Assembly (NCBI GenBank): GCA_947258875.1
Contig: CAMYKB010000019.1
Coordinates: 1-62,484 of the forward strand
Length of the DNA stretch: 62,484 nt
Direction: 5' to 3'
From: an uncultured Gammaproteobacteria bacterium
GTDB lineage: Bacteria; Pseudomonadota; Gammaproteobacteria; CAMYKB01
The notes under the pieces are model-generated. The model saw only the letters and a program-made list of their open reading frames with translations, was not told the origin of the DNA and made no database searches. Below, in pieces: positions 52,134 through 54,435 of the stretch; positions within the stretch are counted from its first letter, which is position 1, and every line of letters begins with the position of its first letter. The position numbers were made by a program, and so were the translations under genes.

Positions 52134-52907
52134 CTACTGACCGGCAGCTTTGGCGCAGATCTCTGTATCGGGGGGCAGGCCCCTGGACATAAGTGGGCGC
52201 ATTGCCGATAACAGATTTTGATAAATGCGCGAATTGTTGCGTTGCTCGGCCTGCAATAATTCCTTCATGTGTTGCCGCTGTGTCGGCATCTCAAAACAGG
52301 CCGGACAATTTTCCATGATAACAGGCAAGGCATTATCCTGTGCAAAGGCTAGTGTCTGGGTTTCACGCACATAAACCAGAGGTCGTATGACCCGCAGATC
52401 GCCGGCGTCGATTTGATAGTGGGCTTTCATGGTGTTGAGTTTGCCGCCGTGAAATGCCGACATGAGAAAACTCTCCGCCAGATCATCGAGATGTTGCGCC
52501 AGTGCCAGCACGTTATAACCTGCCTCGCGTGCGGTGCCGTACATAATGCCCCGCTTCATACGTGAGCAAAATGCGCAGTAAGAACCATTGTCATCCATAT
52601 GTTCTGTGGCGAGCTGCATGATGGGTTCGCGCCGGTAGTAATACTGCAGGCCCAATGATTCGACATAAGGTATTAAAGGTGATGGATCGAAGCTGCCGGA
52701 TTGCGGGTCGACCGTGACGACACCCACTTCAAAATCAACTGGTGCGTGGCGTTGCAGATGCAGCAGGCTGTGCAGTAGGCTCAGTGAATCCTTGCCACCG
52801 GAGAGGCCCAGCAGGATACGGTCGCCGTTGCGAATCATGCTGTAATCGGCAATGGCCTTGCCGATGTGCCTCAGCAATGATTTGGGGGGTGTGATTTGGC
52901 TACTCAT
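52134..52907 (-). CDS. ttcA: TtcA-family tRNA 2-thiocytidine synthase
   Basis: A 257-residue PP-loop ATPase. The pyrophosphatase loop is LLGLSGGKDSLSLL (about residues 33-46), the first cysteine pair CAFCSRMKRG and the second CPACFEMPTQR, consistent with the [4Fe-4S]-dependent TtcA group that thiolates C32 in some tRNAs. It is shorter than E. coli TtcA (about 310 residues) at both ends, so a paralogue with a different tRNA site is possible. A minus-strand small RNA gene and its terminator lie just upstream. Confidence 0.87.
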   Translation of the reverse strand: MSSQITPPKSLLRHIGKAIADYSMIRNGDRILLGLSGGKDSLSLLHSLLHLQRHAPVDFEVGVVTVDPQSGSFDPSPLIPYVESLGLQYYYRREPIMQLATEHMDDNGSYCAFCSRMKRGIMYGTAREAGYNVLALAQHLDDLAESFLMSAFHGGKLNTMKAHYQIDAGDLRVIRPLVYVRETQTLAFAQDNALPVIMENCPACFEMPTQRQHMKELLQAEQRNNSRIYQNLLSAMRPLMSRGLPPDTEICAKAAGQ

Positions 52908-52965
52908 GAAGCGCACGATAAAGCGCAAGCTTGTTGTGATGCAAGTCCGGAGCCCGTCGCGGGCA

Positions 52966-53000
52966 TAAAAAAACCCCGGCGCCCATGGGCCGGGGTTTTG
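52966..53000 (-). terminator. Intrinsic terminator of the GGA-rich RNA
   Basis: Minus-strand AAAACCCCGGC-CCATGGGC-GCCGGGGTTTT is a perfect 11-bp stem; counting the last stem bases, the transcript ends in seven T. The T run is on the minus strand, showing that a minus-strand transcript ends here, about 60 nt before the ttcA start. Confidence 0.9.
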
Positions 53001-53262
53001 CCATTTCTGGCGTAGGGGGTATGAAACGTCGAGTCCCTAATTACTTCTTCCCTCCAGGTCTATTCCATAGACGCTGTTGGTTTATCTATCCCTGAGACTT
53101 CACTGACCATGTCCTGTACGGCCGCTCCTGGTGAAGACCTTTAGATCCAATAAGTTGAGATATCCTTAATCCTTGCTGGATCCGTTCCTTCGACTGACAG
53201 GTAGTGATACAGTCCGTATATCGCTGCCCCTATCAGGTGTCCCTGTACCTCCTCCTTGAGTG
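52967..53262 (-). ncRNA. CsrB/RsmY/RsmZ-like GGA-rich regulatory RNA (predicted)
   Basis: The minus strand between ttcA and pip carries 16 GGA trinucleotides in about 250 nt, several exactly in hairpin loops: GTCTAT-GGA-ATAGAC (53058-53072), ATAC-GGACT-GTAT (53207-53219) and CAGG-GACA-CCTG (53234-53245). It ends in a strong intrinsic terminator. A CATAAT -10-like box lies at 53269-53274, and a GacA/UvrY-box-like palindrome about 87 bp upstream of the expected start. CsrB-type RNAs trap CsrA/RsmA dimers through such GGA loops and relieve repression of their target mRNAs. No protein-coding frame with a usual start fits. The 5' end is an estimate. Confidence 0.8.
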
Positions 53263-53478
53263 GTTGTAATTATGGACAAAGCAGATAGGTTTTACAGCCA
53301 GTTATTTGACGTTTTTTGTGTAAGATACCACACTAAATTTTGTAGGAAACGTCCTACGTAGTATTACGTAAAATCAATAAATATATATAATTATCATGAT
53401 GTTGCAAAGACTTCGCTTGTTGGTTGGCGGGTTACTAACAAACAGGCCGGATCACCCTCAAACTCTTCCGGGTCTGGA
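53263..53478. other. AT-rich intergenic control region of the GGA-rich RNA and pip
   Basis: No gene is seen. The region holds the proposed promoter of the minus-strand RNA, the 18-bp palindrome at 53341-53358, two TACGTA palindromes (53355-53360, 53365-53370) and an AT-rich tract (about 53375-53397) that could be a promoter UP element or serve the plus-strand pip gene. Confidence 0.6.
53341..53358. promoter_or_regulatory. GacA/UvrY-box-like palindrome
   Basis: TGTAGG-AAACGT-CCTACG has the length, symmetry and 6-nt spacer of the GacA box consensus TGTAAG-N6-CTTACA, with three substitutions. It is centred about 87 bp upstream of the predicted start of the GGA-rich RNA, in the range where GacA-type regulators bind upstream of rsmY/rsmZ/csrB genes. 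Confidence 0.65.
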
Positions 53479-54435
53479 ATGACATTGCGCACGTTGTATC
53501 CAGCCATCTCGCCCAATAGTTCTGAGGTGCTGCCAGTCGATGCTGTGCATACACTTTACATCGAGGAATGCGGTAACCCGGATGGCGTGCCGGTTATTTT
53601 CCTGCACGGCGGGCCCGGCGCGGGATGCGAACCTTACCACCGGCGTTTTTTCGATCCTGAGCGCTATCGAATTATCTTATTTGATCAGCGTGGCTGTGGC
53701 CAATCACGGCCGCATGCCGAACTGGCAGGCAATGCCACGGCTAACCTGGTCGCCGATATCGAGGCCATACGTGAACACCTCAATGTTGAACGCTGGGTGG
53801 TCTTCGGCGGTTCCTGGGGCTCGACCCTGGGTTTGGTGTATGCCGAGAGCTATCCCCAACGCCTACTGGGGCTGGTTCTGCGTGGGATATTTCTGTGCCG
53901 TGAGCAGGATATACGCTGGTTTTACCAACAGGGGGCCAGCCGCCTGTTCCCTGATTACTGGCAGGACTTTGTGGCGCCGATACCAGAAGCCGAGCGCGGC
54001 AATCTGGTTGAGGCGTATTACCAACGCCTAACCGGTGATGATGAGTTGGCACGCATGGCGACGGCCAAGGCATGGTCGATGTGGGAAGGCCGTACTGCGA
54101 CGCATATTCCGAAGCCGAGTATCGTGGAACACTTCAGCGACCCGCATATCGCCTTGAGTATGGCGCGCATCGAGTGCCACTACTTTATTAATAACAGTTT
54201 CATGGCGCCAAACCAGATCCTTAATGATGCTCATCGCTTGCGTGATATCCCTGGATTTATCGTGCATGGACGTTATGATGCCATTTGTCCTGTCGACCAG
54301 GCGTTCGCCTTGCATGCAGCATGGCCGCAGGCGACGCTTAACATCATTCCAGCAGCAGGTCATTCGGCAATTGAGCCCGGGATCGTCGATGCGCTGATTA
54401 GGGCAACGGATGAGATGGCCAGATATCTGGCATGA
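53479..54435 (+). CDS. pip: Prolyl aminopeptidase
   Basis: A 318-residue alpha/beta-hydrolase (peptidase S33) releasing N-terminal proline. The oxyanion loop is [12 protein letters not shown] (about residues 38-49), the nucleophile elbow [13 protein letters not shown] (Ser in GGSWG, about 110), and [11 protein letters not shown] and [10 protein letters not shown] carry the acid and His. The N-terminal [19 protein letters not shown] is also typical. Its stop overlaps the dtd start (ATGA), so the two are coupled. Confidence 0.95.

Follow-up and report, generated by a model that had tools for sequence, protein, structure and literature searches.

The window, by which we mean the entire stretch of 62,484 nucleotides analysed from an uncultured gammaproteobacterium, carries a GGA-rich segment between a ttcA-like gene and pip. 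A sequence-only reading had assigned this segment to a regulatory RNA of the CsrB/RsmZ type. The ttcA-like gene has PRK10696 TtcA as its top NCBIfam match, at 216.4 bits, which is under the cut-off of 272. The features of the locus are as follows.

53479..54435, plus strand: pip, prolyl aminopeptidase, divergent neighbour (TIGR01249, 428.9 bits; cut-off, 259.75)
53341..53358, no strand assigned: 18-bp dyad, GacA/UvrY-type box, agreeing with 11/12 consensus positions; also before positional orthologs
53269..53274, minus strand: predicted -10 element CATAAT, 66 bp past the dyad
52967..53262, minus strand: predicted CsrB/RsmZ-type sRNA, ~296 nt with 16 GGA; start inferred
53034..53255, minus strand: predicted GGA-rich sponge body, delimited by GGA positions
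First bases of GGA, first half, minus strand: 53255, 53252, 53242, 53215, 53188, 53183, 53172, 53165
First bases of GGA, second half, minus strand: 53148, 53128, 53114, 53091, 53066, 53055, 53051, 53036
52967..53016, minus strand: 3' module, consisting of the short hairpin GCCA-GAAA-TGGC and the terminator, homologous to relatives
52967..52999, minus strand: intrinsic terminator, G+C-rich stem and 7 T
52134..52907, minus strand: ttcA-like tRNA 2-thiocytidine synthetase gene, next gene downstream, with a putative start at ATG 52907

Between 53273 and 52967, the minus strand contains 16 GGA triplets and a single TCC, and all 16 GGA fall within ~220 nt, inside 53255-53034. Counted per 250 nt, this stretch is the minus-strand maximum of the window (the plus-strand maximum is 11), which bears out the 16 triplets in about 250 nt that had been reported. 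Base shuffles gave an expectation of 6.7 GGA and reached at least 16 in 1/5000 cases; shuffles that preserved dinucleotides, and with them the numbers of GG and GA, gave 10.4 and reached at least 16 in 11/2000. The GGA excess is therefore real, although the original figure of about four expected by chance was somewhat low. The 11 dinucleotide shuffles that reach 16 are the point in favour of chance purine-rich intergenic DNA, and a 37-aa frame with a TTG start at 53279 is the point in favour of a small protein gene. However, that frame begins upstream of the predicted transcript, no frame spanning the RNA (53262-52967, minus strand) and no credible ORF was found. Three findings described below argue against both explanations: positional orthologs built from the same elements, a sibling locus, and an independent model match. 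We assign a negligible probability to both.

In the predicted ensemble, the two hairpins singled out by the sequence-only reading both exist, and their GGA is unpaired with a probability of 1.0 in GTCTAT-GGA-ATAGAC and of 0.89 to 0.98 in ATAC-GGACT-GTAT. About 9 of the 16 GGA are mostly unpaired in this ensemble and several are buried in pairs. Across 17 RNAs, the mean predicted unpaired probability was 0.54 for GGA versus 0.27 for other GGN (paired test across the 17 RNAs, p=8e-6), and the commonest GGA contexts were AAGGA, AGGGA, and CAGGA.

The signals that had been proposed to flank the RNA, an upstream 18-bp dyad with a -10-like box and a strong minus-strand terminator, were all located. 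The dyad has the form TGTAGG-N6-CCTACG (TGTAGGAAACGTCCTACG at 53341-53358, which is CGTAGGACGTTTCCTACA at 53358-53341), with one mismatch to the consensus. In the relatives, -10-like hexamers cluster 44 or 66 to 69 bp past the dyad; CATAAT in the window lies at 66. From this spacing, transcription is predicted to begin near 53262 and to yield an RNA of close to 296 nt, the length originally given for an RNA ending near 52967. The terminator, ACCCCGGC..GCCGGGGT and 7 T, has a folding energy of -22.8 kcal/mol when folded with the preceding hairpin. A class-wide search returned 69 perfect TGTAGG-N6-CCTACA sites, 14 of which have a GGA excess of at least 8 in the adjoining 200 nt, compared with 4 of 1170 random intergenic control points, which are partly interdependent. 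Thus, such dyads predict GGA-dense neighbours. At one locus (L153), GacA-type dyads occur at 617 and ~790, and extra dyads occur in genomes G239 and G099; two or three dyads per genome, some of them close together, suggest more than one such RNA in some genomes. Separately, GGA-rich RNA-like stretches with 15 and 16 GGA were seen at L095 (1360-1020, minus strand) and L293 with no recognisable dyad nearby.

The Rfam covariance-model check on the class assignment was negative. No family reached the gathering score in the window, matches to 52700-53700 up to E=10 included no CsrB, CsrC, RsmY, or RsmZ, and none of 17 related loci produced a match at gathering. A permissive Rfam scan of six related loci gave a single weak RsmY match, to the ortholog at L121 (25.9 bits versus a gathering score of 57). 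What carries the class claim is therefore the architecture, together with the comparative evidence, rather than a place in an Rfam family. DNA similarity searches against 35 other genomes and plasmids returned only terminator-like or chance matches, and most of what a loose search for the motif AATCACCTNNNGCCAGGNNGGC found, with 2 mismatches allowed, were chance matches. A GGA-rich stretch at L041 was dropped as a candidate because the region looks protein-coding. MAFFT could align the whole RNAs at the 3' end only, and for that reason no whole-RNA covariation test was possible. In the literature searched, this locus was not reported.

Among ttcA relatives, one metagenome-assembled genome (J044, locus L021) has pip, dyad, GGA-rich RNA, terminator, and ttcA in the order seen in the window. 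When the regions upstream of pip were scanned in ~90 gammaproteobacterial genomes, the succession of dyad, GGA-containing RNA, and terminator could be read in L080, L090, L099, L108, L115, L121, and L126 and also in L128, L129, L135, L151, L155, and L159, and the arrangement divergent from pip extends over many distant gammaproteobacterial families. In some families, pip and the RNA are separated by a small gene of ~190 aa that is membrane-protein-like and divergent from the RNA (L080, 2464-3024; L090, 2592-3167; L099, upstream of pip).

These neighbourhoods bear on whether the RNA is instead a 5' leader that acts only in cis, on ttcA, and whose terminator serves as an attenuator. The ttcA-like gene is on the same strand, its start is 60 nt beyond the end of the terminator, and ttcA follows the RNA in many relatives, all of which would suit a leader. 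However, a convergent typA/bipA (identified by eye from translations) follows the RNA in L115, L121, and L135, and the sibling RNA described below does not adjoin ttcA, and in all of these the dyad and GGA body are kept. The convergent typA excludes a leader at those orthologs and argues against a cis-acting ttcA leader, a reading that we consider very improbable; some transcripts may nevertheless run on into ttcA as a by-product.

The covariance model R1 was built on 70 positions at the 3' end of ten orthologs, with the window left out. Its two helices show both-sided changes at 7 of 11 pairs, a value reached by 0/500 shuffles. R1 matched the window at 52967-53016 (28.0 bits; E=0.0006 in 203 kb), and in the whole genome the window terminator was the only match (E=0.008). 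Part of this score comes from the terminator, and synteny is thus the stronger evidence. In 369 sampled genomes, R1 gave 27 matches in 19 families, with pip within ~1.5 kb of 22 of them; among the 17 matches outside the training set, 12 were within ~1.5 kb of pip and 1 more was beside ttcA. The best match in 375 kb of other loci, in Thiorhodospira sibirica (25 bits), lies directly before ttcA and 125 bp past a dyad, and therefore it is probably a true family member. The pip-linked sRNA family, which spans these 19 gammaproteobacterial families of the sample, is absent from Rfam; what is new is the family relative to Rfam, and the mechanism is already known. The shared synteny offers a route to CsrB/RsmZ-type RNAs whose rapid divergence defeats alignment, and a means of tracing how they evolved. 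The window RNA has in common with the family its divergence from pip, the upstream dyad, and the match to the 3' module.

A second locus was found in the same genome (G000; 3.01 Mb, 98.5% complete). Genome-wide, TGTARG-N6-CYTACA has one perfect site, on contig C36, and behind it lies a second GGA-rich stretch that has 14 GGA and 0 TCC in 308 nt and ends in a terminator.

L161 1501-1935 (G000 contig C36, 21330 onward): likely sibling RNA locus, behind the only perfect TGTAGG-N6-CCTACA dyad

The flanking genes are lptD-like and proton-pyrophosphatase-like (names by eye from translations). The two RNAs have short exact blocks in common, for example, GGACTCGACGT and CAGCAAGGATT, and the C36 RNA is likely a sibling sRNA of the window RNA.

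We searched this genome for Csr pathway genes by patterns and models. It has a single copy of csrA, a UvrY/GacA ortholog (a response regulator above the curated UvrY cut-off, at 284.2 bits), and a full-length BarA-like hybrid kinase (positions 4-893 of 920; 544.7 bits, below the curated cut-off of 890). The gene for uvrY/gacA is known to lie near uvrC, and the arrangement here is close to that, with uvrC (by eye from translation) as the second gene downstream of the UvrY-type regulator gene. In genome G036 (J044), no csrA was found, yet the GGA-rich RNA is present; a gap in the assembly, or divergence of CsrA, is the probable reason.

Taken together, these results strongly support the original reading. 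The GGA density and loops, the terminator, the dyad, the lack of a credible ORF, the presence of csrA, uvrY, and barA, the sibling, and the orthologs all point to 53262-52967 on the minus strand being, with high confidence, a noncoding CsrB/RsmZ-type sponge RNA that would titrate CsrA under BarA/UvrY control. Counting against it are the missing Rfam match, the paired state of some GGA, the dyad mismatch, the motif AUACCCCCU discussed below, the share of the terminator in the R1 score, and a BarA score below cut-off. Architecture, pathway genes, synteny, and the homologous 3' module can be read directly from the DNA; transcription, UvrY control, CsrA binding, a regulon, and a phenotype we infer by analogy with CsrB/RsmZ (PMC4682653, PMC4950607, PMC8523701). 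On that model, the BarA-like kinase would feed phosphate to UvrY/GacA, which in its phosphorylated form would bind the dyad at 53341-53358 and activate the promoter at ~53270. The ~296-nt transcript would then present GGA sites open to binding, some nine or more of them, and take up several CsrA dimers, and this titration would free CsrA-repressed mRNAs, with the C36 RNA acting as a sibling in the way that CsrC does for CsrB. The two predicted RNAs would be the missing sponges of BarA-UvrY-CsrA regulation in this lineage, which has no close relatives in the set searched.

In length and GGA number, the window RNA is closest to CsrB of E. coli. CsrB and CsrC also have many GGA, form a sibling pair, and have an 18-nt inverted repeat; the repeat of csrB is bound by UvrY and centred near -183 (PMC4682653), whereas that of the window is at about -87, there is no sequence match, and the neighbours are different. 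The Pseudomonas rsmY/rsmZ-type RNAs, which sequester RsmA, have the 18-bp GacA upstream sequence TGTAAG-N6-CTTACA, at -75 for rsmY (PMC4950607, PMC2375449). RsmX, RsmY, and RsmZ (Rfam RF00195 RsmY and the RsmZ family) resemble the window RNA in their multiple unpaired GGA and 18-bp upstream dyad, and their size is close to that of the shorter pip-linked relatives. They differ in that the window has no Rfam match, the pip-linked dyad reads TGTAGG-N6-CCTACR, the genomic place is another one, and the pip-linked relatives carry a conserved AAUCACCU 3' module. CsrB and CsrC of Marinomonas mediterranea were found by GacA box, ANGGA motifs, and terminator, and RNA-seq shows their BarA/UvrY-like dependence (PMC8523701). 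By description, these are the same criteria as those that pick out the window RNA, but the Marinomonas RNAs are backed by expression data, whereas the window RNA is predicted from sequence.

The sequence AAUCACCU(CC) is conserved before the last hairpin in the 3' ends of L278-L303 and in L027 (3846-3913), and predictions leave it single-stranded more often than not (mean paired probability, 0.41). The window has AUACCCCCU at this place, which departs from AAUCACCU in a degenerate AAUCACC part, and its membership in the pip-linked family therefore rests on the other features. CsrA binding does not explain the conserved motif, which leaves room for some other regulatory RNA or DNA element whose GGA do not bind CsrA, such as a sponge for another protein or an sRNA that base pairs via the 3' motif. 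The AAGGA, AGGGA, and CAGGA contexts and their loop placement fit CsrA, however, and the dyad, being of the UvrY type, links the RNA with the Csr pathway, so that we regard such an element as extremely improbable and retain the CsrA sponge. The family's AAUCACCU(CC) equals the 3' tail of 16S rRNA (anti-Shine-Dalgarno), AUCACCUCC. Because R1 contains the motif, a count of identities to the 16S tail is partly circular, and only the consensus identity was used. Candidate partners of the motif are the RNA's own GGAGG sites, mRNAs, or a protein. We tentatively raise the possibility, which we think doubtful, that the family is a two-part RNA in which a GGA-rich CsrA sponge is joined to a mostly unpaired 16S-tail-like 3' element that may pair with Shine-Dalgarno sequences, either of mRNAs or in the sponge's own GGAGG sites. 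If so, one RNA of the family would both free and block ribosome sites. The conserved 3' motif is in any case a new feature open to testing.
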